Part shown: piece by piece, positions 1,263-23,651 of the stretch
Layout: the number at the start of each line of letters is the position of its first letter
Numbering within the stretch: the stretch's first letter is position 1
NCBI GenBank assembly: GCA_944324795.1
Contig: CALUXR010000016.1
Location: 1 to 40,099 of the forward strand
Source: an uncultured Acholeplasmatales bacterium
GTDB taxonomy: Bacteria > Bacillota_I > Bacilli_A > Acholeplasmatales > Anaeroplasmataceae
Direction: 5' to 3'
Length of the DNA stretch: 40,099 bases
Made by a program: the position numbers and the translations under genes
The notes under the pieces: model-generated
What the model was told of the DNA's origin: nothing
Databases searched by the model: none
The model's input: the letters and a program-made list of their open reading frames with translations, nothing else

Positions 1263-3141
1263 TCAATAATAATTCAATTGCTTTATTAGCAAAATTAACT
1301 GGGTCTTTAGGTTGTAATCCTTCAATAATTAAAGCATCATCAAGTAAAAATTTAGCATAGTCAGCTAATTTATCTTTATCATTTTGATAAATTTCTTGTA
1401 ATTTTGTAAATATTTTATGATTTGGATTAATTTCAAGAATTTTTTCTGCTTTAGCCATACCATCTTGTGCAGCTAATACTTTTTCCATTTCAATTGAAAT
1501 ACCACCTTTAGCAGATAAACATACAGCACCATCTACTAAGCGTTTTGATAATATAACATCGCTAACATCATCTTTTAATGTTTCTTTTAAAGCTTCTAAT
1601 AAATCTTTATTATTTTCTTTTACTTCATCTAATTTTTTATTTTCTTCTTCATCTAATAAGTCAAGTTCGCCTTGAGTTATTGATTTAAATTCAACTTTAT
1701 CATAATCATGCATTACTTGAAGCATAAATTCATCTACATCATCATTTAATAATAAAACATCATAACCTTTATTTTTTAATAAAGTCATTTGTGGTAAATT
1801 TAAAGCTTGTTCTTTAGTCTTTAAAGCTACATAATAAATATTTTTTTGACCTTCTGGCATTTTTTCTTTATATTCTTTTAAAGTTATAAATTTATCTTCA
1901 TTTAAAGAATGTAATATTATTAAATCTTGTAATGATTCTTTTCTAGCTCCATAATTTTCATATAAGCCATATTTTAAAGCTCTACCATAATCTTTAAAGA
2001 ATTCTTCATATTTATTACGATCATTTTTTAACATTTTAGCAAGTTCTTGTAATATTTTCTTTTCAACATTACTTGCAATCTTTTTAATTTGTCTATCTTC
2101 TTGTAATAATTCACGACTAATATTTAAAGGAAGATCGGCACTATCAACTAAGCCTTTAACGAAATATAAATAATCAGGGATTAAATCCTTGCATTTATCT
2201 AAAATGAATACACCTTTAGTATATAATTGTAAGCCTCTTTCATCACGATCATTATATACATTAAACATAGGTTTACGTGGTATAAATAATAATGCATTAT
2301 ATGTTATTAATCCTTCAACACTAACAAAGATTGCAGATAGAGGGTCTTGATAATCAACAAATTTTTGTTTATAGAAGTTATTTAATTCTTCATCAGTTAC
2401 ATCTTTACGATTCTTTTTCCATAAAGGAATCATTGAATTGATTGTTTCAAGTTCAAGGTGGGTACTTTCTTTATCCTCTTTTCCTTCTTCAACCTTATCA
2501 TATTTAGTAACCCAAGTTTTAATAGGATATCTTATATAATCACTATATTTTCTAATTAAATCTTTAATTTGATACTCATCTAAGAATTCACTATATTTTT
2601 CATCTTCTGTATCTTCTCTTAAATATAAAACAATTTTAGTACCATCAATAAGTTCATCACTAGATGAAATTGTATAACTGTCAAGACCTTCACTAGAAAA
2701 TAGATAAGTCTCATTTGTATTAACTTTATGAGATAAAACTTCTACTTTGCTAGCTACCATAAAGGCACTATAAAAACCAACCCCAAATTGACCAATAATA
2801 TCAGATGTGTTAGCTTTATCACCTAATTGTTCTAAAAATTCTTTTGAACCACTTTTAGCAATAGTACCTAAATTATTTTCAAGTTCTTCCTTATTCATAC
2901 CAATACCATTATCACTAATAGTTAAAGTTCTATTTGTTTTATCAGCTTCAACTAATATTTGATAATCAGGATTTATTATACTCTGGTCAGTTAAACTTAA
3001 AAATTTACGTTTATCAATAGCATCACTCGCATTAGAAATCAATTCTCTTAAAAATATTTCTTTATGAGTATAGATACTATGAATCATCATATCTAATAAT
3101 TTTTTAGTTTCTGTTTTAAATTCTTTTGTTTCGCTACTCAT
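1258..3141 (-). CDS. htpG: Molecular chaperone HtpG (Hsp90 family)
   Basis: An ATP-dependent Hsp90-type cytosolic chaperone of 627 residues, normal for bacterial HtpG. The N-terminal GHKL ATPase domain shows RELISNASDA (catalytic Glu and nucleotide-contacting Asn), DNGIGM, the GTIAKSG lid segment and GQFGVGFYSAF. The middle domain carries the client/ATP-contacting stretch NISRELLQED, and a C-terminal dimerisation domain follows. The longest frame starts at 3150 (MIKMSSE), but the AAAGGA site is only about 2 bases from that ATG and about 10 from the one at 3141, so I take 3141. It diverges from hslO around a CIRCE-like operator that overlaps its own promoter, so HrcA control is likely. It is followed by a strong terminator. 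Confidence 0.97.
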   Translation of the reverse strand: MSSETKEFKTETKKLLDMMIHSIYTHKEIFLRELISNASDAIDKRKFLSLTDQSIINPDYQILVEADKTNRTLTISDNGIGMNKEELENNLGTIAKSGSKEFLEQLGDKANTSDIIGQFGVGFYSAFMVASKVEVLSHKVNTNETYLFSSEGLDSYTISSSDELIDGTKIVLYLREDTEDEKYSEFLDEYQIKDLIRKYSDYIRYPIKTWVTKYDKVEEGKEDKESTHLELETINSMIPLWKKNRKDVTDEELNNFYKQKFVDYQDPLSAIFVSVEGLITYNALLFIPRKPMFNVYNDRDERGLQLYTKGVFILDKCKDLIPDYLYFVKGLVDSADLPLNISRELLQEDRQIKKIASNVEKKILQELAKMLKNDRNKYEEFFKDYGRALKYGLYENYGARKESLQDLIILHSLNEDKFITLKEYKEKMPEGQKNIYYVALKTKEQALNLPQMTLLKNKGYDVLLLNDDVDEFMLQVMHDYDKVEFKSITQGELDLLDEEENKKLDEVKENNKDLLEALKETLKDDVSDVILSKRLVDGAVCLSAKGGISIEMEKVLAAQDGMAKAEKILEINPNHKIFTKLQEIYQNDKDKLADYAKFLLDDALIIEGLQPKDPVNFANKAIELLLK

Positions 3142-3168
3142 TTTAATCATTTCCTTTCAACAATACGT

Positions 3169-3197
3169 ATTATAATTCTTTTAATTAGCACTGTCAA
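3169..3197 (-). promoter_or_regulatory. htpG promoter, sigma-A type
   Basis: On the minus strand TTGACA (3197-3192), a 17-base spacer and TATAAT (3174-3169): a perfect consensus. The -35 box lies inside the CIRCE-like operator, so a bound repressor would block RNA polymerase. Confidence 0.9.
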
Positions 3198-3211
3198 TAT
3201 TAAAGTGCCAA
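3185..3211. promoter_or_regulatory. CIRCE-like HrcA operator shared by htpG and hslO
   Basis: The pattern is TTAGCACTG, nine bases, AAGTGCCAA. The CIRCE consensus is TTAGCACTC-N9-GAGTGCTAA; the left arm matches 8 of 9 and the right arm 7 of 9, with the exact spacer length. It covers the htpG -35 box and ends five bases before the hslO -35 box. HrcA itself is not in the window. Confidence 0.8.
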
Positions 3212-3216
3212 TTATC

Positions 3217-3244
3217 TTGACTAATATAATAATTATGATATAAT
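3217..3244 (+). promoter_or_regulatory. hslO promoter, sigma-A type
   Basis: TTGACT (3217-3222), a 16-base spacer and TATAAT (3239-3244) on the plus strand, just downstream of the CIRCE-like element and 16 bases before the hslO start codon. Confidence 0.85.
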
Positions 3245-3260
3245 TCATACGGTGATTTAG

Positions 3261-4118
3261 ATGAAAGATTTATTAAATATCGCAACTGCTTATAATGATA
3301 AAATTAGAATTTATGCTTGTAATACCACAAATATTGTAAAACACGCCAAAGAAATATTTAATTTATGGCCTACCTCTTGTGCGGCTCTTGGTAGGACTTT
3401 AACTATTGCTTGCATAATGGCAGAGATGGAAAAAATGGATTCAAAAATAACTATTAAAATAGAAGGCGATGGTCCTATTAAAAATATTGTTGTCGTTGCT
3501 AAAAAAGGCGAAGTTAAAGGATTTTGTTATAATCCTGGTGTCTATTTATCAAATAATAATGGTAAATTATTAGTTGGAGAAGCAATAGGAAATGGCTATT
3601 TAACTGTTATTAAAGATTATGGTCTAAAAGAACCGTTTACTTCAACCGTTAGTTTACAAACTGGAGAAATAGGCGAGGATTTTGCCTATTATTTTAACCA
3701 AAGTGAACAAACTAATACTGCAGTAGCCTTAGGGGTTTTATTTGATAAAGAAGGCAATGTAACTGATGCTGGTGGTTATGTAATTCAAGTTATGCCAAAT
3801 TGTCCTATAGATATAATTGAAAAATTAGAAGAAATATTAAAAAATATTAAACCTATTTCTACTTTATTAAATGAAGGTAAAAACATTAAAGATATTATTT
3901 CTATATTAAGTCCAAATGATTATAAGATACTTGCTGAAAGAGAAATTAATTATGTTTGTGATTGTTCAAAAGAACGTTTTTTAGCTGGTATTAAAACACT
4001 TGGTAATGCTGAAATAAATGAACTTATTAATAGTAAGGAAGATATTTCTGTAACTTGTAATTTTTGTAATAAGACTTATAATTTTAGTAAAGATGATTTA
4101 AAAAATTTAATAGATTAA
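3261..4118 (+). CDS. hslO: Redox-regulated chaperone Hsp33
   Basis: Hsp33 is a holdase activated by oxidation and unfolding. This protein has 285 residues, typical of the family. The C-terminal zinc switch is intact: CDC (in YVCDCSKERF) and CNFC supply the four zinc-binding, redox-sensitive cysteines. The N-terminal body shows family patterns such as GDGPIKNIVV and GEIGEDFAYYFNQSEQ. The ATG follows GGTGAT at close spacing. It is one of only two confident plus-strand genes and sits divergent from htpG with a shared CIRCE-like site, so the oxidative and heat chaperones are probably induced together. Confidence 0.96.
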   Translation: MKDLLNIATAYNDKIRIYACNTTNIVKHAKEIFNLWPTSCAALGRTLTIACIMAEMEKMDSKITIKIEGDGPIKNIVVVAKKGEVKGFCYNPGVYLSNNNGKLLVGEAIGNGYLTVIKDYGLKEPFTSTVSLQTGEIGEDFAYYFNQSEQTNTAVALGVLFDKEGNVTDAGGYVIQVMPNCPIDIIEKLEEILKNIKPISTLLNEGKNIKDIISILSPNDYKILAEREINYVCDCSKERFLAGIKTLGNAEINELINSKEDISVTCNFCNKTYNFSKDDLKNLID

Positions 4119-4122
4119 TACA

Positions 4123-4160
4123 ATAAGGAGGAAGCAAATAAACTTCCTCCTTATATTTTT
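4123..4160 (+). terminator. Terminator of hslO, between convergent genes
   Basis: A perfect 12-base-pair stem (4123-4134 with 4143-4154), an 8-base loop and then ATTTTT. The hairpin overlaps the end of the convergent phosphoesterase gene and may also slow minus-strand transcription, though the minus-strand U tract is poor. Confidence 0.85.
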
Positions 4161-4597
4161 ACTTTTATTATTTTATCTTTATTAACTAAATATATTTCAT
4201 TATCTATAATATAAGCATATTCATTATTCTTAAAAGCGCCCGGGTTAATATAAATAGTATTTTCTACTTTAAAACAAATTTGTTTATGAGTATGACCAAA
4301 TAAAACTAAATCATATTTATTAACTGTATTTTGAATTAAATCATCATAACTATATTTTGTATTATATAAATTAGAATGTGTAATAAATATATTTAAATTT
4401 GCTAATTTTAATTTTAGATATATTGGATATTCATTATAATCACAATTTCCTTTTACATAATATAAATTTGGATAAAGTTTAAAATAATCTAAATCGCTAT
4501 TTTTAAGATCACCACAATGAATAATATAATCATAATCATCTAAAGGTAATTTGGTTATACTATTGTTGTGACTGTCCGAGCATATTAAGAGCTTCAT
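4151..4597 (-). CDS. YfcE/MJ0936-type metallophosphoesterase
   Basis: A small calcineurin-like phosphodiesterase of 148 residues. The dinuclear metal-binding motifs appear in the family order: DSHNN near the N-terminus, HCGD, KGNCD, an HS dyad in the middle, then GHTH and NPGA. These are the hallmarks of the YfcE/MJ0936/VPS29-like group, which cleaves phosphodiesters in vitro; the physiological substrate is usually unknown. It begins inside the 3' end of the MATE gene (38-base overlap), with an AAGGAG site about 11 bases upstream of the ATG, so the two are co-transcribed. Confidence 0.9.
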   Translation of the reverse strand: MKLLICSDSHNNSITKLPLDDYDYIIHCGDLKNSDLDYFKLYPNLYYVKGNCDYNEYPIYLKLKLANLNIFITHSNLYNTKYSYDDLIQNTVNKYDLVLFGHTHKQICFKVENTIYINPGAFKNNEYAYIIDNEIYLVNKDKIIKVKI

Positions 4598-6029
4598 TAT
4601 TTCTACTTCTCCTTAAGAATATAATATAACCTAAAACAAGAGGGATACAAGCAAATGTCCATGAAACAATATCAGCTGCACAAGTCATAATATAGGCCCC
4701 GTCACTTGCAAGTCTTGTAATTGGTGCCCCATTAATTAACTCTGGGAAGAAAAGACAAACAACAGTTCTAGCAATAAGTTCACCAACACCGGCTAAAAAT
4801 GGGAATAATGGTTTTTCTACACCTTGTAAACAATTTCTTAAAATGAATAAAACACCTAGTACCGGATAAGCTGGTAAAACTGTTATTAAATAATAATTAC
4901 CATATTTAATTGTTAAATCATTTATTTTATCTTTAGATAAGAAAATATATAAATATGCTCCATTAATAGTTAATAATAAACCAATTCCTGCAAAAATGAC
5001 ATACATAATAAGCATTATAAGGAAAGATTGTTTAATACCACTTTTTAACCTTTTATAGTCATTAGCTCCTAAATTTTGACCACAATATGATAGCATAGCT
5101 GTTCCTAAGGCATTAAATGGCGTCATCAAGAAGTTATTTAATTTACAAGCTGCACCATAGCCAAGTTGTGATTCGTTGGCTAAAGTACCATCAGGTAAAA
5201 TATCAAATTTAATTGTTGTAGCTTGCATAACTATTAGACCAACTGCTAAAATTGAAAATTGAAAAGCTAAAGGTAAGCCTAATACTAAATGTTTTTTAAT
5301 ATAACCTTTAGGTAATTTAAAATCTTCTTTTTTAAAACGATATTCTTTAAGCTTAATAAAAATATATAAAAAACAACCGATAGCTGAAATTGCTTGAGCT
5401 AAAACTGTCGCGATTGCAGCTCCTTCTACTTCCATATTTAATGGTCCAATAAATAATAAATCTAGAACAATATTTAGAATTGTTGAAAATATTAAAAATA
5501 ATAATGGCGTTACACTATTACCTAAACTTCTTAAAAACGAACAAGCTAAATTATAAAATACTTGAGCAATTGTTCCTAGAAAAATTATAAAAGTATAAAT
5601 ATAAGCAGCATCATAAATTTCTTTATTTTTACTTTCTTCAACGCCAATAAAATTAAGCAATAAATCGATTGATAATATTGCTATAACGGTTAATATGACA
5701 CTAATGATAAATGATAAAATCATTTGAACAAGTAAGCTTTGTCTAGCACCCTTAATATCGTTTTGACCTATTTTACTAGCAGAAACAACACTAAAACCAG
5801 CCGTACAACCAAACGCAAACTGTAATACTATAAAGGTTATATTGCTAGTATTATTAACACCAGCTACTTGATTAGCATTTAAAAATTGACCACATATTGC
5901 CGCATCTGATATCGTATATATTTGTTGAAATAGATATGACAATAAGATAGGAATTGCAAAAATAACAATAACTTGCCAAATAACACCCTTTGTTAAATCA
6001 ACTGAACCAAATAATTTTTTTAACATATT
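4560..6029 (-). CDS. MATE family multidrug/cation exporter
   Basis: An inner-membrane antiporter of 489 residues with about twelve hydrophobic segments. The N-terminal region (LTKGVIWQVIVIFAIPILLS, then FQQIYTISDAAICGQF) has the typical MATE pattern of a short amphipathic lead followed by TM1 and the D-x-x-x-x-G-Q segment. The second half repeats the fold (KKHLVLGLPLAFQFS). It most resembles the NorM/DinF group; transport substrate and coupling ion cannot be read from sequence. The longest frame starts at a GTG at 6038, but that GTG is part of the ribosome binding site GGTGAG, so the ATG at 6029 is preferred. Confidence 0.92.
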   Translation of the reverse strand, partial: NMLKKLFGSVDLTKGVIWQVIVIFAIPILLSYLFQQIYTISDAAICGQFLNANQVAGVNNTSNITFIVLQFAFGCTAGFSVVSASKIGQNDIKGARQSLLVQMILSFIISVILTVIAILSIDLLLNFIGVEESKNKEIYDAAYIYTFIIFLGTIAQVFYNLACSFLRSLGNSVTPLLFLIFSTILNIVLDLLFIGPLNMEVEGAAIATVLAQAISAIGCFLYIFIKLKEYRFKKEDFKLPKGYIKKHLVLGLPLAFQFSILAVGLIVMQATTIKFDILPDGTLANESQLGYGAACKLNNFLMTPFNALGTAMLSYCGQNLGANDYKRLKSGIKQSFLIMLIMYVIFAGIGLLLTINGAYLYIFLSKDKINDLTIKYGNYYLITVLPAYPVLGVLFILRNCLQGVEKPLFPFLAGVGELIARTVVCLFFPELINGAPITRLASDGAYIMTCAADIVSWTFACIPLVLGYIIFLRRSRNNEALNMLGQSQQ

Positions 6030-13926: not shown

Positions 13927-14105
13927 AATCTTTTATAATAAAATCTTGTGATTATAATAGCTATAAATAATAATATTGCAATTAAGATGATTAAAAGCCA
14001 AATAATATTAGTAAAAATAAAACAATTAATTATTATAGCTAATGGTCCAATTATATAAATTAGAGATATTAATATTGATAATAAAATTGCTTTAAACTTT
14101 TTCAT
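13911..14105 (-). CDS. Small two-TM membrane protein
   Basis: A 64-residue protein with a basic N-terminus (MKKFK), two hydrophobic segments (about 7-28 and 31-52) and a basic C-terminus (YYKRLRMKK), so both ends probably face the cytoplasm. No family is recognised. Its start lies 14 bases inside the upstream protease gene, so it is translationally coupled to it, and it is followed by a terminator. It may be a partner or membrane adaptor of that protease, but this is inference from the overlap. Confidence 0.65.
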   Translation of the reverse strand: MKKFKAILLSILISLIYIIGPLAIIINCFIFTNIIWLLIILIAILLFIAIIITRFYYKRLRMKK

Positions 14106-15084
14106 ATAAAACCTTAAGACAATCTTCTATATTATTTACTTCATATAATTCCATTTTTTTATTATTTATGGAATTATAAGTTTCTAAAGCCTCTTTATAA
14201 TTACTACTAGGGCAAAAAAAGATATCAACATCCTTTAAAATAGCTGTATATATTTTTTGTTTAATCCCTCCAATTGCCCCAACTTTACCATTTGATGAAA
14301 TTGTACCAGTACCACTTATTTTTAAGCCATTTGATAAATCGATATCTATTATATCATCAATTAAAGATAAACTTCTAAGAAGCCCACCACTAGGACCATT
14401 AGTAGTTCCCCTTCTAATATTAACTGATGGATTTAATGTATCATAATTAATATTAAAATAAGGATAAACATAAATATAATCATTAGTACTATTAATATAT
14501 TTATAAATTATTTTACCATCTCTTATGATTTTTAATTTAGCATTATCTTCTTTTAACCAACCAGAATCGATATCATTTAAAGAATATAAATCTTTAACTG
14601 CTACATCATTTACTTCAATTATTTGATCACCTATTTTATAATCACTATCTAAATAATAATATGTTACAACTAAACTTTCTAAATAATAATCTAAATTGAT
14701 AGAATCATCATAATTACTAACTATATTATAAGCTGATATAATTGTATTCATCACGGAAGAATTATGTTCTATTTCCCCCATCTTATAATTTTCATAATCA
14801 CTAAAATGACGACTATTAATAGAAATTTCTTCAATAGTAGTTGAATTTAAATATTTACAAATGAAGTTTTGAAATAAAGTTGAATGACTAAAAGATACTA
14901 CATATACCGTTTCATATGTACCACTATTACTACTTTTTTTATCTACTTCAACGACATCACTTGCTTCATTTAATCCACCTATTAATGTTATTTCATAATT
15001 TGACCTATATGTTGTAAAAAACAATATTATAAAATTAATAATTATAGCTATAATTATTGGTATAATATGGCGTAGTTTAAGCAT
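14092..15084 (-). CDS. Membrane-anchored PDZ/Lon-type (S16) serine protease, SepM/YlbL-like
   Basis: A 330-residue extracytoplasmic protease. Residues about 7-24 form a signal anchor. A PDZ domain lies around 130-200 (YKIGDQIIEVNDVAV, then LKIIRDGK). The C-terminal Lon protease domain has the catalytic dyad: Ser232 in GPSGG and Lys275 in IGGIKQK, exactly 43 residues apart as in Lon (Ser679/Lys722 in E. coli). It also shows GTGTISSNGKVG, which matches SepM/YlbL proteins. SepM of streptococci trims a secreted signal peptide; the substrate here is unknown. It overlaps the ileS end by eight bases, so the ileS T-box also controls it. Confidence 0.92.
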   Translation of the reverse strand: MLKLRHIIPIIIAIIINFIILFFTTYRSNYEITLIGGLNEASDVVEVDKKSSNSGTYETVYVVSFSHSTLFQNFICKYLNSTTIEEISINSRHFSDYENYKMGEIEHNSSVMNTIISAYNIVSNYDDSINLDYYLESLVVTYYYLDSDYKIGDQIIEVNDVAVKDLYSLNDIDSGWLKEDNAKLKIIRDGKIIYKYINSTNDYIYVYPYFNINYDTLNPSVNIRRGTTNGPSGGLLRSLSLIDDIIDIDLSNGLKISGTGTISSNGKVGAIGGIKQKIYTAILKDVDIFFCPSSNYKEALETYNSINNKKMELYEVNNIEDCLKVLYEKV

Positions 15085-17779
15085 TTTTATTAAACACTAT
15101 ATCATGACAACGACTACATAGACCATCTTTCAATTCTTCTTCTACAACCATCCAACATCTTGAACATACATGACCTTTTGCCTCATTAACTTCATAATGA
15201 ATGTCTTTATCTTCTTTTAATTCAAGTTGTGAAACTATTAATATTTGAGCTAAATTACAATTTAAATTATTTAAGAAATCTAAATAATCTTTTGGACCAT
15301 AAATTGTAAGTTTAGCATTAAAACTCTTACCAATAATTTTATTAGCTCTAGCTTCTTCTAATGATTTTAAAATATCATTACGATAAATCATAAATTTATC
15401 AAAATCTTTTTCTAATTTATCATCAATAATTTTACTTACTTTTGTCATATTTTCAAGATAAATATCTTCTTCTTGTTTACAAGGAATTGTATTATATGCT
15501 TCGCTTGTAGTATGAGGAATAATTGGAGTTAAAACTTTTAATAAACTTATTAAAATTTGATATAAAACTGTTTGTAAACTTAAACGCTTTTTATCGCTTG
15601 GGTCTAAGATATATAAAATATCTTTTGAAAAATCTAAATAAAATGAACTTAAAGTATTATTGATATAAGTATTAGTTAATCTATAAACATCACCAAAACG
15701 GAATGTATCATATGCTTCATATACATCTTTTAAATATTTATTTAATTTAATAAACATATATTTATCAATACTTTCTAATTCATTATATGAAATACTATCT
15801 TTAGGATCAAAATCAGAAGTGTTAGCTAAAATAAATTTAATTGTATTTCTAATTTTACGATATGTTTCACTAATTTGTTTTAATAATTCTTTACTAATAG
15901 GCATATCAGATTGATAATCAATTGATGCTACCCATAAACGTAATACATCAGCCCCATTTTGTTTACATACATCGCTTGGGTCAATGACATTACCAAGTGA
16001 TTTACTCATTTTTCTTCCTTCACCATCAAGAGTAAAGCCATGAGTTAAAACATTTTTATAAGGTGCACCGTTAAACATAGCTGTTGAAGTTATTAAACTT
16101 GAATTAAACCAACCACGATATTGATCGGCCCCTTCTAAATATAAATCAGCAGGGAATGGTAAGTCATGGCGAAGTAAAGTCATATAACTTGAACCACTAT
16201 CAAACCAAACATCCATAATATCTTTTTCTTTTGTATAAATATTATTTGGAGAATGAGGATTACTATAACCGTTTGGAAGTAATTCTTTAGCTTCTTTCAT
16301 AAACCAAATATCAGAACCAAATTCACCAAATAAATAAGAAATATGTTTAAATACTTCTTGATCTAAAATTGGAGTTCCATCTTCACAATATATGATTGGG
16401 ATTGGTACACCCCAAACTCTTTGACGGCTTATACACCAGTCATGACGCTCTTTAATCATATTTGTCATTCTGATATCGCCCCATTTAGGATACCAATTAA
16501 CATTTTTAATATTTGTTAAAATTTCATCCTTTATTTTGTCTATTGAAGCAAACCATTGAGGGGTAGCTCTAAATATTACTGGTTTTTTTGTACGCCAATC
16601 ATGAGGATAACTATGAACAATTGTGATTACTTTTAATAAATTACCTGAACTGTCTAAGTCATTAATTACTTCTTCATTACATTTTGTATAGAATAAGCCT
16701 TCATATTTACCAGCTTCCTTAGTCATATAACCTTTATTATCAACCGGACATAAAACATCTAGATGATATATTTTACCAACATTATAGTCATCTTCACCAT
16801 GACCTGGGGCAATATGTACAAGTCCTGAACCATCTTCAGTTGAAACATAATCACCTAAAACACATGGTGATATTCTATCATATAATGGATGTTTATATTT
16901 TAGACCTTCTAAAGATGTACCTTTGTATTCTTTAATAATTTCTACTTCACCTAAATCTAATAAATCTTTTAATTTGTTTAATAAATCATAACCAAAAATC
17001 AATTTACCTTTATTAGTTTTAGCAAGAACATAATTAATATCTGGTCCGGCACAAACAGCTAAATTAGCTGGTAATGTCCATGGGGTAGTAGTCCATACTA
17101 AAAATTTAGCATCATTTAATTCACTATCATTAGATATAATTGGGAATGTGAAATAAATAGATTTATCTTCTTTATCATGATATTCAATTTCAGCTTCCGC
17201 TAAAGCTGATTCACTTGATGGTGACCAATAAACTGGTTTTAATCCTTTATAGATTAATCCCTTTTCTACCATTTTTGCAAAAACTTTAACTTGGTCGCGT
17301 TCAAATTCTTTTTGTAATGTTAAATAAGCATCATCATAACTTGCAAGAACACCAAGTCTCTTAAAACCAATTTTTTGTTTTTCTACTTGTTTTATAGCAT
17401 ATTCATGACAATGTTTTCTAAATTCTAAAGTCGAAACTTCTTTTCTATTTACAGTCTTAGAAACATTTATTTCAATAGGTAAGCCATGTGTATCCCATCC
17501 CGGAATATATGGTGAATAAAATCCTTGCATATTTTTATAACGAACTACTATATCTTTTAATATTTTATTTAAAGCATGACCAATATGAATATTACCATTA
17601 GCATATGGTGGACCATCATGAAGAATATAAGCTTTACTTCCTTTATTTTTAGCTAATCTTTTTTGATATATTTCTTTTTTAGTCCATTCTTCTTCAATAA
17701 GTGGTTCTTTTTGACCTAAATTACCACGCATTTCAAAATTTGTTTTACCCATAAATAGAGTATTTTTATAATCTTGCAT
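15077..17779 (-). CDS. ileS: Isoleucyl-tRNA synthetase
   Basis: A class I aminoacyl-tRNA synthetase of 900 residues. HIGH is at about residues 65-68 in PPYANGNIHIGHALNK, KMSKS occurs as GRKMSKSLGNVIDP, the tRNA-dependent editing domain lies in the middle (WTTTPWTLPANLA), and a C-terminal zinc finger has CSRCW and CSRCH. The frame is open up to 17845, but the first 22 codons of that version belong to the T-box terminator; AAAGGAGAT stands right before the ATG at 17779. It is controlled by the T-box immediately upstream and co-transcribed with the S16 protease and a small membrane protein. Confidence 0.98.
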   Translation of the reverse strand: MQDYKNTLFMGKTNFEMRGNLGQKEPLIEEEWTKKEIYQKRLAKNKGSKAYILHDGPPYANGNIHIGHALNKILKDIVVRYKNMQGFYSPYIPGWDTHGLPIEINVSKTVNRKEVSTLEFRKHCHEYAIKQVEKQKIGFKRLGVLASYDDAYLTLQKEFERDQVKVFAKMVEKGLIYKGLKPVYWSPSSESALAEAEIEYHDKEDKSIYFTFPIISNDSELNDAKFLVWTTTPWTLPANLAVCAGPDINYVLAKTNKGKLIFGYDLLNKLKDLLDLGEVEIIKEYKGTSLEGLKYKHPLYDRISPCVLGDYVSTEDGSGLVHIAPGHGEDDYNVGKIYHLDVLCPVDNKGYMTKEAGKYEGLFYTKCNEEVINDLDSSGNLLKVITIVHSYPHDWRTKKPVIFRATPQWFASIDKIKDEILTNIKNVNWYPKWGDIRMTNMIKERHDWCISRQRVWGVPIPIIYCEDGTPILDQEVFKHISYLFGEFGSDIWFMKEAKELLPNGYSNPHSPNNIYTKEKDIMDVWFDSGSSYMTLLRHDLPFPADLYLEGADQYRGWFNSSLITSTAMFNGAPYKNVLTHGFTLDGEGRKMSKSLGNVIDPSDVCKQNGADVLRLWVASIDYQSDMPISKELLKQISETYRKIRNTIKFILANTSDFDPKDSISYNELESIDKYMFIKLNKYLKDVYEAYDTFRFGDVYRLTNTYINNTLSSFYLDFSKDILYILDPSDKKRLSLQTVLYQILISLLKVLTPIIPHTTSEAYNTIPCKQEEDIYLENMTKVSKIIDDKLEKDFDKFMIYRNDILKSLEEARANKIIGKSFNAKLTIYGPKDYLDFLNNLNCNLAQILIVSQLELKEDKDIHYEVNEAKGHVCSRCWMVVEEELKDGLCSRCHDIVFNKNA

Positions 17780-18031: not shown

Positions 18032-18355
18032 TTATTTATCATCAAAATCATTTAAAAATTCATTTAATGTTCCATCATTAAATTCAACATTTTTAGCAAA
18101 TAAATAAGTTGTTTCATTAATTTTAATAGATTTACCACTAGATGCATAGCTAGCACCAGCAAAGAAAGCTAAATATTTATTAGCTCCAAGCAAATCTAAT
18201 TTTTCAAAATTTAAAACTAATGGTTTGCCAAGTTGTAGTTCATCAACTAATTCCTTAGCTCTTTCATCATCTTCTAATATTTGTTCAAAAATAATTTTTT
18301 CGATAGCTGGTATTTTGGCTGATTCTTCAACTTTTTTACGTTTAAATAGCCCCAT
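18032..18355 (-). CDS. sepF: SepF-like cell-division protein, short form
   Basis: A 107-residue protein whose body matches the SepF core: an N-terminal DDERAKELVDELQLGKPLVL helix-strand, then NFEKLD, then KYLAFFAGASYASSGKSIKI and TTYLFAKNVEF. SepF polymerises, binds the FtsZ C-terminus and tethers it to the membrane through a short N-terminal amphipathic segment, here perhaps MGLFKRKK. The usual long linker is mostly absent (B. subtilis SepF has about 150 residues). The frame opens at a GTG at 18364, but that GTG is inside the site GGTGAAG, so the ATG at 18355 is preferred. The gene starts 14 bases inside the 3' end of jetC, so it is translationally coupled to the SMC-like operon. sepF close to ileS is the ancestral Firmicutes arrangement. 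Confidence 0.85.
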   Translation of the reverse strand: MGLFKRKKVEESAKIPAIEKIIFEQILEDDERAKELVDELQLGKPLVLNFEKLDLLGANKYLAFFAGASYASSGKSIKINETTYLFAKNVEFNDGTLNEFLNDFDDK

Positions 18356-21300
18356 TATCTTCACCGCCTTGTTTAATGATTGGCATAACTTGAGCTTTTA
18401 CACCTTGACGAGCCATTATTAAAATTGTTTTAGCATAATCTTGTAATAAACTCATTCTTTGAGGAGGACAGGCAATTATTGTTTGAAGTGGCATAGATGT
18501 AATAAAATCCATCATTGCTTTCATTCTATTACTATCCATTTTATCAAATACCTCATCAAACATTACAAGACCAATCGGATCGCCACCATAAGCTTGGGTT
18601 TTTGTATAAATTCTAACAAATGAAGCTATTATAGCTACATAAAATGGTACTTGTGTTTCACCACCTGATTTTTCTTTAAAGACTTTTGAATAACTCATTG
18701 ATTCACCCTCAAGGTTAGTTATTTTAATATCATAGTCCATATAAGTTCTATAGTCAGTGAATTTATTAATAACCCCATGAGAATTGATTTCATCAACAGC
18801 TAAACTATCGAATAATTCTTTAATTTGTTCTTCATATTTATGTTCAAAATCAGTAGTGAATAATCCTTCTTGACCACCTTCTATATCTGATTTAACCATT
18901 TCATAGAAAGCTCCATATTCACTAGATTTAGGGAAGACAAATTCATATGTATCATTACCAAATCTAATATTTGCTAGAGTATCATTAATCTTGCTGATTT
19001 CTATTTCAGCTTGTTCAATATTAGCTCTTAATTTAGCAATAAAGTCTTCTTTAAAAATCAATTCAGCTTCTTCTCTAGCTGTTCTTACTTTTTGTTCATA
19101 TTTAATAAGTTCTGTTTTTTCTAGTTTATTTAATTCTTGATAATAAGAAGGCATTTCAGTAATACCAATTGAGAAACTAGAATCGTAATCGTTGACATAT
19201 TGATATTGCTTAGTCATCAAGGCCTCATTTAATGTGTCATAAGTATTATCTTTAACATTGTATTTAGCATCAAATAATTTATATGCTTCACTAAAACTAC
19301 GACCATTCAAAAATTCATTATATTCATTTAAAGCTTTATCTTTAATAGTAATTAAAGTATCACCTAATTTTAATAAATCATCTTTTTTAGTTCTTAATAA
19401 ATTATTTTGTTCAACAATTTTTTCTTCTAAATTTAAAATATTTTGTTCAACACGACCAATTTCTAAAGTGATTTGGCTCTTTTTATTTTCATTATTAGTA
19501 ATAGTTTCTAAAATATGATTATAATCATCTTCAATATCTTTTAAAGATGAAGTTTTTAAATGTTCTCTTTGTAAATATAAACCTTTTAAAGCATCTTTTT
19601 CATATTCTAATTTTCTAGAACTTTCTATACCATCTAATATAGATTGGAAATCAAGATTATCTAATAATGTTAATTCAGCTTCTAAACTATCAATTTCATC
19701 AATTACTTCATCATAAGAAGTTTTAGCAACCGCAGCTTTTTCTTCCCAAACTTTCAATTGTGATTGATAAGCATTCTTACCACAGAAAGGTTTGTCAATT
19801 CTTGGATTTAAACTTCTAACTGTAAATTGACTATAAAGTAAATAATCATTTGTAATAGCCGTATTATATTTTTCTAATTCTAGTTCATTATCACACATTA
19901 TAACATTGCCACAAGTCATATTAATATAACGACGAGCATCTTCATTTTCACTAGACATAATACTTGCTAGAGAATTTGGTTCATATGAATTAAATGTTTT
20001 AATTTTTTTAGTATTTACTAAACCAATACCATATATTGGATGTCTATCTTTAATACGGGCAAAAATTTGTAAAGCTTGGTCATAGTAACGTGGTTCAACA
20101 ATCATATTAAACCTTCTATTTCCTAAATAAACTTCAATTGTATCAGCCCAATTAGGATCATTTATTTCTACTAATTCAGCAAAAATAAATACTGGGATAT
20201 CATAATTATAAATACGTTTTAAACCAGCCTCAATTTCATCTCTTAAGCCAATTAACTGGCTTGGGAAATTTACTTTATTTTGACTTAATTTCTTTAAAGC
20301 ACTAGCAATTTCATTAACATTTTTAATAATTTCTGATTTTTTGATCGTTAAAGCACCAAGTTGTTGATTATTTCTTTGTTTATATTGTTCAACTAAAGTT
20401 TTAGCTTCATTTAATTTTAATCTGGTAAAATCAACTTCATTATTATTTAAATTAATTAAAGACATGCTTGCTAAATCATTAAAAATTTTTCTATCTTTAT
20501 TTCTTTTTCTTATTTCATTAACATTATCTTTAAAATTAGCAACATATTTTAAAAATATTGCATTATCTTTTTCAAGTTCACTAATATTTCTTTCTTTATC
20601 TTCAATATCGCGAGCTATATTTTCATTATTTTTAAAAACTTCATCATTAGCTAGGACATTATATAATTCTTTACTTCTTTGATTTAAAGCTGCGATTTCT
20701 CTTTCAATCTTTCTTAAATCACTTTCTTTACTACTTTTTTTAAGATTTTCTTGTTCAATAGCTTTTTCTAAATTAATAATATCATTAGCTACTCTTTCTT
20801 TTTCAAATAAAGTATTTAAATATTCAACATAAGTTTTATTTTCAATTACTTTTTCTAATTCTTCATAAACATTAGTAATTTCTTTTAAATCGCTAATCTT
20901 TTTCTTAATTAAATTAAGAGTATTTTCTAATTCTTTATAAGAACGAATTGTATCTTTAATAGCTGATACATCAATTTCTTTTTCTTCTAAAACATTTTGA
21001 TAAATAAATTCTTTAACATCAGAAATAGGTTTAAAAGCTAGAGCTTTAGGAATTAATTTAAAGAAATCTTCATTAATTGAACCAAAAGCATTTCTAAAAG
21101 CTTTTTTAGCTTCTTTTTTAGTTAAATAAAATTCAAAATCAGGATGATTTTTTCTAAAGATTACAGTTGAATAAATCATACCTTCACTAGATACAAACCA
21201 TGAATCATCTAAAGGTGTATCTACTTTATAAAATAAACTTTTAACAGGCATCAATTCGCCAAAAGCATCAATTACAACCCCAACGGTAAAATCAGTATTA

Positions 21301-21599
21301 GTTTTTTCATCATGAAATTCAAGAGCGACATGGCCTGTAACATCACCTTCTCGAAGATATTCTTTATCATCAAGACCTAGTTTACATTTAACATAACCTC
21401 TTAAATCACGTTTTGATTTTTCATTAGCGGCCATATTAAAATTAGTATCACCAGCAGTAATAACATACATAACCGCATCCATAATAGTTGATTTACCACT
21501 AGCATTAGGACCTGTTAATAGAACATGGTCTTTAACATTTATAGTCTCATTAGCAAGATAGTGCCAATTAATTAATCTAATTTTAGTTAATTTTTTCAT
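18342..21599 (-). CDS. jetC: JetC/MukB-like SMC ATPase of a Wadjet-type complex
   Basis: A 1085-residue SMC-family protein. The N-terminal head has Walker A GPNASGKST (about residues 30-38). Long coiled coils flank a central hinge-like region (around 470-640, with YDIPVFIFAELVEIND and GNRRFNMIVEPRYYD), and the C-terminal head has the signature SGGETQVPFY (from about 978) and Walker B LVMFDEVFDKMD (about 1011-1022), with Asp and Glu both intact. The ATPase therefore looks active. The non-canonical SMC pattern and its partners JetA and JetB match the Wadjet/MksB group, which extrudes DNA loops. Translation starts from GGAGG in an ATGA overlap with jetB. The expected next gene, jetD (TOPRIM nuclease), is not here; sepF follows instead. 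Confidence 0.9.
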   Translation of the reverse strand: MKKLTKIRLINWHYLANETINVKDHVLLTGPNASGKSTIMDAVMYVITAGDTNFNMAANEKSKRDLRGYVKCKLGLDDKEYLREGDVTGHVALEFHDEKTNTDFTVGVVIDAFGELMPVKSLFYKVDTPLDDSWFVSSEGMIYSTVIFRKNHPDFEFYLTKKEAKKAFRNAFGSINEDFFKLIPKALAFKPISDVKEFIYQNVLEEKEIDVSAIKDTIRSYKELENTLNLIKKKISDLKEITNVYEELEKVIENKTYVEYLNTLFEKERVANDIINLEKAIEQENLKKSSKESDLRKIEREIAALNQRSKELYNVLANDEVFKNNENIARDIEDKERNISELEKDNAIFLKYVANFKDNVNEIRKRNKDRKIFNDLASMSLINLNNNEVDFTRLKLNEAKTLVEQYKQRNNQQLGALTIKKSEIIKNVNEIASALKKLSQNKVNFPSQLIGLRDEIEAGLKRIYNYDIPVFIFAELVEINDPNWADTIEVYLGNRRFNMIVEPRYYDQALQIFARIKDRHPIYGIGLVNTKKIKTFNSYEPNSLASIMSSENEDARRYINMTCGNVIMCDNELELEKYNTAITNDYLLYSQFTVRSLNPRIDKPFCGKNAYQSQLKVWEEKAAVAKTSYDEVIDEIDSLEAELTLLDNLDFQSILDGIESSRKLEYEKDALKGLYLQREHLKTSSLKDIEDDYNHILETITNNENKKSQITLEIGRVEQNILNLEEKIVEQNNLLRTKKDDLLKLGDTLITIKDKALNEYNEFLNGRSFSEAYKLFDAKYNVKDNTYDTLNEALMTKQYQYVNDYDSSFSIGITEMPSYYQELNKLEKTELIKYEQKVRTAREEAELIFKEDFIAKLRANIEQAEIEISKINDTLANIRFGNDTYEFVFPKSSEYGAFYEMVKSDIEGGQEGLFTTDFEHKYEEQIKELFDSLAVDEINSHGVINKFTDYRTYMDYDIKITNLEGESMSYSKVFKEKSGGETQVPFYVAIIASFVRIYTKTQAYGGDPIGLVMFDEVFDKMDSNRMKAMMDFITSMPLQTIIACPPQRMSLLQDYAKTILIMARQGVKAQVMPIIKQGGEDNGAI

Positions 21600-22180
21600 T
21601 CTTCTTCGCCTCCTTGCTTGATTCTATTAATAGTTTGATATAAAGAATTAATATCTTCACTTGGTATAGCAAGTAAAATAGTTGGCATCAATACTATTTT
21701 AGTTGTTGAAACAGTTAAATCCCCTGTTGCTTCTATAAGATTATAACGACGAAATAATCTTAAAGCTTGTTGTAGGTCAGTTTTATTTAATTTCTTTTTA
21801 ATTTCTAAATAATCATATTTTTCATGAATATCAGCTATATTACAAACAATATTATCATTTAAAGATGTTTCTTTAATTTTTTCATGATATAAAAGTCTTA
21901 AAATCAATAATATTAAAGTTTCATCTCTTTTTAATCTTAATGTTTGACCTTGACTAAAGCCTTTTAACATAACAGAACCTTGTTGTTGATTTAAAATAAT
22001 TTCTAAATCTAAAATTTTAAAAAATTCATCAAAAATATCTTTATAACTCATTAAAAAATAATAAGCTTCTTTATTATCTTTTTTATCTCTAGCTAAAAAG
22101 TTATAAGCTAAAAGTTTATTACAAATATCTTTGAACATTGTTTGTTGTGGGTTAGTCATTTTTGCTAAATTTTCTAACAT
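21596..22180 (-). CDS. jetB: JetB/MukE-like KITE subunit (DUF4194 type)
   Basis: A 194-residue protein with the DUF4194 pattern seen in JetB: GQTLRLKRDETLILLILRLLYHEK in the middle (a winged-helix core) and TDLQQALRLFRRYNLIEATGD toward the C-terminus. KITE proteins of this type dimerise and bind the kleisin that bridges the SMC heads. It starts one base after jetA ends and shares ATGA with jetC, so the three are tightly coupled. The stop is TGA, which shows that TGA is not read as Trp in this organism. Confidence 0.88.
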   Translation of the reverse strand: MLENLAKMTNPQQTMFKDICNKLLAYNFLARDKKDNKEAYYFLMSYKDIFDEFFKILDLEIILNQQQGSVMLKGFSQGQTLRLKRDETLILLILRLLYHEKIKETSLNDNIVCNIADIHEKYDYLEIKKKLNKTDLQQALRLFRRYNLIEATGDLTVSTTKIVLMPTILLAIPSEDINSLYQTINRIKQGGEEE

Positions 22181-22181
22181 A

Positions 22182-23597
22182 CTAAACCTTCTTTCTAATT
22201 AAGAAATTTTTCATTCTTAAATTAACATTAGTAATCTTTTCATTAATAACTAAAACTTCATATTCTTCATTATCTTCAAGAGCGTATAAAATAGAATATA
22301 TTGCAAGCATACATGTATCTTCATTTGTATCATATTTGATAACATCATTACCATACATTTCATTATCTTTTAAATGATTTAATAAAAAGCTTTTAGCTAT
22401 TTCTTCACTATATGGTGTTTGATATTGTTTAATAAAATCAGCTTCAATATCAAAATCAAATAAAGTATCATTATCAAGCATTAAATTATAATTATGTTTA
22501 TATGCCCCTCTTGGAATATAAAGAGATGATTCACTTAAACTTCTATTTGCTTCTAATTTATACATTCCATTAACCATCTTTAAAGCTTTTTCAATATGAC
22601 CTTCCTTATTTTCAGAACGAACATATTTTAATATTTTATTAATTTTACCAATAACATTATCATCTTCAGATAATAAAAATTTAATTTTCGCAATCGTACT
22701 ATTAACATATGTTTTACTTTTTTCATCAATTTCAGTAATCATTTCATCTAACGAATTGAAAACATCAATTATCTCATCAATATCTCTAATAGCTTTAGTG
22801 ATTGCTTTATCTTTATCAAGATTTGGATAATTTATGCTAATAGCTTCTAAAACATTACCATTTTCTTCATATTCTTCTAATTTAGAAACGATTCTTAAGC
22901 GATAACGATTAATATTATCTCCCATCTTTAATTTCATATAGCCTTGTTCAACAAAATTTTCTCTATATGATACTAAGTTTTCCATCAATTCTTTAACTTC
23001 AGCTTGTTCAAAAACAGAACTAATATATGTTTTAAGACTTGCATCTAATCTTCTAATAGAACGTAATAATAATTTTGTGTTACGATAAACTTCTTGCATA
23101 ATTACACTATATTCAATATTATCACTGTTATTTAACAATGAATATATAGTATAAATATATCCCTGATATTCTTTATTATTAGGAATGTAGTTAGTATCTT
23201 CTTCATAATTATCATCATAATCTTTACCACTTAATTGTAGTAAGGCTTCTGATATTATAATACCAGAATTAGTAAAATTTAAAATTTCTTCATAATCATT
23301 AGTAATATCAACATAAATCCAGCCACATTCTTCTAACCGTCTTAAAATATAATTTGCTAAATCTCTATTTGATTTAGGATTAGCTTCTTCATCTAATGTA
23401 TCTTCAGCATCATAATTATATTTATTATTATCTAAAAAATTAACTAATTCATCTAAGACAATTTTCTTTTCAATACCTGTCGTAGAGGCACTTTCATATA
23501 TTTTAAAAACCTCAAGAATTGAAGCTGAATAAATTCGTTTATTTTTAGAACTTAAAAGTGAAAAAAAGTTTTCAGGAATAATATTAAATAAATCCAT
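22182..23597 (-). CDS. jetA: JetA kleisin-like subunit of a Wadjet-type complex
   Basis: A 471-residue protein beginning MDLFNIIPENFFSLLSSK, which is the typical opening of Wadjet JetA proteins (DUF5716 type). An N-terminal winged-helix-like domain (about 1-140) precedes long helices (GYIYTIYSLLNNSDNIEYS, SIRRLDASLKTYISSVFEQA) and a C-terminal domain that would contact the SMC head. The frame continues upstream to 23651, but those 18 codons contain promoter sequence, and GGTGAAGGT stands just before the ATG at 23597. It is the first gene of the jetABC-sepF operon. Confidence 0.88.
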   Translation of the reverse strand: MDLFNIIPENFFSLLSSKNKRIYSASILEVFKIYESASTTGIEKKIVLDELVNFLDNNKYNYDAEDTLDEEANPKSNRDLANYILRRLEECGWIYVDITNDYEEILNFTNSGIIISEALLQLSGKDYDDNYEEDTNYIPNNKEYQGYIYTIYSLLNNSDNIEYSVIMQEVYRNTKLLLRSIRRLDASLKTYISSVFEQAEVKELMENLVSYRENFVEQGYMKLKMGDNINRYRLRIVSKLEEYEENGNVLEAISINYPNLDKDKAITKAIRDIDEIIDVFNSLDEMITEIDEKSKTYVNSTIAKIKFLLSEDDNVIGKINKILKYVRSENKEGHIEKALKMVNGMYKLEANRSLSESSLYIPRGAYKHNYNLMLDNDTLFDFDIEADFIKQYQTPYSEEIAKSFLLNHLKDNEMYGNDVIKYDTNEDTCMLAIYSILYALEDNEEYEVLVINEKITNVNLRMKNFLIRKKV

Positions 23598-23621
23598 TAC
23601 CTTCACCCCAATCTTTAAACA

Positions 23622-23651
23622 ATTATAGCATAATAAACCCATTATATACAA
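23622..23651 (-). promoter_or_regulatory. Promoter of the jetABC-sepF operon
   Basis: On the minus strand TTGTAT (23651-23646), an 18-base spacer and TATAAT (23627-23622) with a TG extension (TGCTATAAT). It is a housekeeping-type promoter; I see no operator or repressor gene nearby. Confidence 0.75.

Follow-up and report, generated by a model that had tools for sequence, protein, structure and literature searches.

A JetABC operon without JetD upstream of sepF in the Anaeroplasmataceae: probably a chromosomal SMC complex

Introduction

What might a Wadjet-type operon be doing in a cell where it lacks its nuclease and is followed by a gene for a cell division protein? The question is raised by a locus of an uncultured member of the Anaeroplasmataceae (Acholeplasmatales), a family that includes the cultured Anaeroplasma bactoclasticum and belongs, with many other wall-less bacteria from guts and the environment, to a large group of relatives of Acholeplasma. 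JetD is the TOPRIM nuclease of Wadjet. In the initial annotation of the stretch of 40,099 nucleotides analysed here (the window), jetA, jetB and jetC were recognized as contiguous and as ending in sepF instead of jetD, and it is the meaning of both the missing gene and the neighboring one that is considered below.

The jetABC-sepF operon

The features of the window that are relevant are the following.

22182..23597, minus strand: jetA (type I, JetA1), kleisin subunit, 471 aa; Pfam and PADLOC
21596..22180, minus strand: jetB (JetB1), KITE subunit, 194 aa; Pfam DUF4194 and PADLOC
18342..21599, minus strand: jetC (JetC1), SMC-type ATPase, 1085 aa; PADLOC and solved JetC structures
18032..18355, minus strand: sepF, 107 aa; Pfam, solved-structure profile and fold
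15077..17779, minus strand: ileS; synteny in families f2, f3, f4 and f5 and in other Anaeroplasmataceae genera

All four genes from jetA to sepF are carried by the minus strand in a tight operon, with the 1-base gap between jetA and jetB and the 4-base overlap (ATGA) of jetB with jetC just as first described, and with a 14-base overlap (18342-18355) of jetC with sepF. The start of jetA is probably at 23597 and not at the listed 23651, because both the profile match and the relatives begin at MDLF; the longer reading frame relies on an upstream TTG. The start of sepF is at 18355, which gives the 107 aa product, and the overlapping reading frames would lead to co-expression of JetABC and SepF. 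As the jetC-sepF junction is found in 47 genomes, an assembly artefact is ruled out. An Rfam scan of the window gave no hits. At 14092-15084, in the place after ileS that surE takes in sister genera, the window's genus has a gene for a protein with PDZ and Lon C-terminal domains.

JetA matches Pfam JetA with 235 bits (cut-off 26) and JetB matches DUF4194 with 99 bits (cut-off 33), AAA_29 and an SbcC Walker B domain are recognized in JetC, and PADLOC labels the subunits JetA1 (348 bits), JetB1 (200 bits) and JetC1 (1016 bits). The nearest solved structures to JetC are JetC proteins; comparison of JetA with PDB sequences gave no useful match, and its predicted fold is nearest to the MukF kleisin, with TM-scores that are low. 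The ATPase motifs of JetC, thought from the outset to be intact, are kept in an alignment across the Anaeroplasmataceae: Walker A is GPNASGKST, the signature is SGGETQVPFY and Walker B is VMFDEVFDKMD. The locus accordingly has what characterizes the Wadjet group of SMC-kleisin-KITE complexes, an SMC ATPase with all three motifs together with a kleisin and a KITE protein, and it has the JetA1, JetB1 and JetC1 of Wadjet type I within one operon. It is not MukBEF proper, the Pfam MukB domain scoring 18.2 bits on JetC against a cut-off of 23.

All three Jet proteins are under strong purifying selection (dN/dS 0.09-0.21), and this together with the intact motifs rules out a pseudogene. For JetC the dN/dS is 0.17-0.19 compared to 0.17-0.20 for the neighboring ileS, and the divergence of the former tracks that of the latter (Spearman 0.51).

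JetD and a second Wadjet locus

JetD was found neither beside the window operon nor beside any close orthologue. Its absence, which had been noticed for this one operon and had led to the suggestion of a domesticated or distinct version, is a property of the whole clade, and the suggestion is borne out to the extent that this JetABC is probably domesticated. A jetD elsewhere in the same genome had been named at the outset as a finding against the proposal, and taken literally there is one, on contig C10, though it belongs to a separate and divergent JetABCD. That locus (L073 of genome G000, C10 1732-8106) is complete and canonical, its JetD keeps an intact GDID motif and its proteins are 25-31% identical to those of the window, subunit by subunit. 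JetD is present in 7 of 80 Acholeplasmatales genomes, mostly adjoining a second, divergent JetC. Within the Anaeroplasmataceae a JetD-bearing locus is found elsewhere in the window's own genome and in four other genomes (5 of 48), and in 4 of these 5 JetD is beside a second, divergent JetC. Since the JetD on C10 is part of a JetABCD of its own, and since 43 of the 48 genomes are without JetD, a relocated JetD that acts in trans on the window complex is ruled out.

Among JetC relatives' loci fetched for comparison, linkage to JetD is bimodal. Those with 40-84% identity, in which the band near 45% consists of Izemoplasmatales and similar MAGs, all lack JetD, and those with 31-36% identity have JetD downstream in every one. 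Because no JetD is next to jetABC, the jetABC-sepF locus is, as judged from its sequence, a JetABC homologue and is not filed here as a Wadjet defence system.

There are two further occurrences of JetD to record. In genome G138 contig C32 has JetA fragments and an adjoining JetD match (2965-5026), apparently a decaying second Wadjet, and the main JetABC of that genome is without JetD. In genome G018 there is a JetD match on contig C80 (L036, L103), with no JetC found in the surrounding 14 kb that were read; the sepF-linked JetABC is on another contig.

In JetC trees the window is in a JetD-less clade with families f2, f4, f23 and f24 (support 100/100). AU tests reject monophyly of the JetD-less JetC proteins as a whole (p 1e-49) and a grouping of the window clade with f3 (p 2e-5), and so rule out one JetD-less clade that includes the Acholeplasmataceae, keeping in mind that the deep branches of JetC are long and that two trees disagree on the deep branching. 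With a single JetD-less clade rejected, the change seems to have occurred more than once, probably through several losses of JetD in different lineages.

Distribution of JetABC and loss of SMC-ScpAB

JetC is present in all 48 Anaeroplasmataceae genomes, in all 15 sampled non-phytoplasma Acholeplasmataceae, one of them closed, and in 30 of 34 and 6 of 7 genomes of two Izemoplasmatales families in which the misses are assemblies with 70-92% estimated completeness. Family f3 includes a closed genome of 1,496,992 bases. JetC is in none of the 49 genomes of f16, a family of the order Izemoplasmatales. ScpB was found in 0 of 80 Acholeplasmatales genomes, and SMC and ScpB are likewise missing where the orthologues occur in Izemoplasmatales. 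Nearly all SMC-hinge matches in the 80 Acholeplasmatales genomes are to JetC's own hinge, and no SMC gave a match over the cut-off there, below which a remote SMC could still lie. This context of missing SMC and ScpB had escaped the initial annotation.

A class-wide sample of 237 Bacilli genomes that are at least 90% complete has SMC in 110 and ScpB in 111, the two agreeing in 108. JetA or JetC is present in 65, of which 55 are without SMC and ScpB, and 52 of these 55 are without JetD anywhere. Both kinds of complex, JetABC and SMC-ScpAB, are present in only 10 of the 237, all of them in f12 (Haloplasma-like) or f17. The Fisher p of 4e-10 for this table merely describes it, as the genomes are related and non-independent. 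Neither SMC or ScpB nor JetA or JetC is present in 69 of the 237, including phytoplasmas (the phytoplasma-like genus g23), most of f5, and f16; loss of SMC-ScpAB therefore does not require JetABC. Five f12 loci (L230, L232, L233, L234 and L249) are from genomes with a JetD-less JetABC and SMC-ScpAB, several of which also have JetABCD. Since f12 retains both, loss of JetD does not alone amount to replacement; it is possible that the f12 genomes with both complexes are takeover intermediates. The distribution of JetABC is that of a housekeeping condensin, with lineage-wide retention as the sole SMC complex, and with the extra JetD-bearing locus in five Anaeroplasmataceae genomes.

This bears on whether JetABC may still be directed against plasmids, but without cutting, by extruding and then compacting or sequestering small circular DNA or by borrowing another nuclease. 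The intact ATPase of JetC would serve such an activity, and by PADLOC the nearest proteins are indeed anti-plasmid JetABC. However, defence is unlikely for a JetABC that is universal, slow-evolving and vertically kept when the family's JetABCD is patchy (JetD in 5 of 48), and that is embedded among housekeeping genes.

SepF and the history of the junction

The short gene that starts inside jetC is a true SepF gene, as had been proposed. Its 107-residue product passes the Pfam SepF cut-off (36 bits versus 27), the family profile finds solved SepF structures, and the predicted fold (pLDDT 85) matches the SepF of B. subtilis and of C. glutamicum; the three tests rule out a spurious call. It is the sole SepF of the window's genome, has a conserved N-terminal short MGLF..K segment, and is as short and plain as the SepF of sister families.

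In families f2, f3, f4 and f5 the gene order is ychF-yggS-sepF-ileS, with ftsZ further upstream in f3 and f5, and in most Anaeroplasmataceae loci it is ychF-jetABC-sepF, with ileS next in several. ileS anchors the window locus to the ftsZ-ychF-yggS-sepF-ileS cluster of the sister families. Beside the jetABC orthologues of f2, f4 and the Izemoplasmatales there is no sepF, and their neighbors are groESL, rsmE-mtaB and others. Because the sister families hold sepF in that cluster and jetABC is where yggS was, sepF is an ancestral resident and not a JetD substitute, and in the Anaeroplasmataceae it was jetABC that moved, taking the place of yggS among old neighbors with a part in cell division. 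Loss of JetD predates the jetC-sepF junction, as JetD-less orthologues elsewhere adjoin rsmE-mtaB or groESL. The part of the initial reading in which a JetD-less JetABC is followed by SepF stands, but that in which sepF stands in for jetD is ruled out: orthologues without sepF next to them, their sepF being elsewhere, are without JetD too, and the sepF of this locus was inherited there. At L154:5612-6847, in one Anaeroplasmataceae member, ftsZ is directly upstream of jetABC-sepF.

Conservation of the junction, a matter raised at the outset, is complete, with sepF directly after jetC in 47 of 47 testable Anaeroplasmataceae genomes. In 36 of 37 loci sepF begins no more than 13 bases ahead of the jetC end and no more than 5 bases beyond it, and in the other it begins at 68. 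The outer flanks are less stable: among scorable loci, ychF is still upstream in 21 of 31 and ileS still downstream in 11 of 35. Such a contrast is a hint that co-expressing jetC and sepF is of use, rather than proof of a physical link.

Constancy of the junction, with sepF usually overlapping jetC or within 5 bases of it while the flanks vary, could also be expected if SepF recruits JetABC to the Z-ring for loop extrusion at the division site, for instance for clearing or positioning the chromosome, and the one genome with ftsZ directly before jetABC-sepF would fit. Such recruitment is nevertheless quite improbable given that sepF is an inherited occupant of this place and in sister families already abuts an upstream yggS, that orthologous JetABC of the Izemoplasmatales, f2 and f4 has no adjoining sepF, and that this SepF is short and plain like its counterparts there. 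Equally doubtful is the more elaborate proposal, confined to the Anaeroplasmataceae, that JetABC replaced SMC-ScpAB and that SepF physically links it to the Z-ring as a division-site-anchored condensin, SepF being a fourth component that replaces JetD.

That sepF abuts yggS in sister families can instead be read as a sign that jetABC and sepF are neighbors by chance, with the overlap being kept as translation of sepF needs jetC, and with JetABC redundant and dispensable; many relatives do live without any known SMC complex. Retention in 48 of 48 genomes and a dN/dS of 0.09-0.21 on all three Jet proteins speak against dispensability, and mere neighborhood is very improbable as the whole explanation.

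Proposed role

The preferred explanation, which we consider probable, is that jetABC encodes a Wadjet-I-type SMC-kleisin-KITE complex without nuclease that works as a housekeeping chromosomal SMC complex. JetABC would load on the chromosome, ATP hydrolysis by JetC would drive DNA loop extrusion, and the complex would help sister chromosomes to separate with no DNA cutting. What is observed is an intact three-subunit operon, missing JetD, missing SMC and ScpB, near-universal presence, constraint like that of a tRNA synthetase and a place in an ancestral cell-division cluster upstream of the sole sepF; in addition, the flanks of the orthologues are housekeeping genes, which supports a chromosomal role. 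That role and loop extrusion we infer from Wadjet, MukBEF and MksBEF. As most of the cells have no other machine of this type left, JetABC has probably taken over chromosome folding. Against this are the 69 genomes that do without either complex, and it may be that JetABC is of use to the cell without being essential.

Comparison with known systems

There is a precedent in the replacement of Smc-ScpAB by MukBEF, which is the chromosomal SMC complex of E. coli. MukBEF of enterobacteria is a nuclease-free Wadjet-group SMC-kleisin-KITE complex in genomes without SMC-ScpAB (PMC10586767, PMC7617805). MksBEF of Pseudomonas aeruginosa is also nuclease-free and has a role in chromosome organization (PMC10586767), in a species that carries SMC too (PMC7485682). 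Both have been proposed to be former Wadjet defence complexes after JetD loss (PMC10586767). According to a 2025 Cell paper (PMC7617805) JetD is lacking in several members of the Wadjet group, and the JetD-less examples discussed there and in PMC10586767 are MukBEF and MksBEF. JetD-less Wadjet-group complexes are thus already known in kind, and the supplementary operon list of PMC7617805 may already include some of the present operons.

The window operon resembles Wadjet type I (JetABCD) in its JetA1, JetB1 and JetC1 profile matches, its jetA-jetB-jetC order and in having JetC as closest structures, but differs in being without JetD, which in most of the genomes is not found anywhere, and in being core, not patchy, and in a cell-division gene cluster. 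It shares with MukBEF that a nuclease-free Wadjet-group complex is found in genomes lacking SMC-ScpAB, and MukF is the closest match to the JetA model, but in sequence it is type I JetABC with a sub-cut-off MukB domain, and it is from other bacterial lineages. MksBEF is likewise a Wadjet-group complex without nuclease, though P. aeruginosa also has SMC whereas SMC-ScpAB is absent in the window's relatives. The likeness to SMC-ScpAB is in the proposed role only, as the SMC family is a different one and here no SMC match is over the cut-off and there is no ScpB. In a partial coverage of the literature no paper was found in which a type I JetABC is the only SMC complex in Acholeplasmatales or Izemoplasmatales and no description of a jetABC-sepF operon, and a search on SMC loss in Acholeplasma found nothing.

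With PADLOC profiles the proteins of this group come out as Wadjet subunits, and for that reason caution is merited before every JetABC is annotated as anti-plasmid defence. Across entire families of Bacilli, type I JetABC is seemingly the sole SMC complex of most genomes, with JetD-bearing relatives of it still in existence, and Acholeplasma laidlawii, a culturable saprophyte, would permit a direct test of whether a defence motor has become a chromosome organizer.
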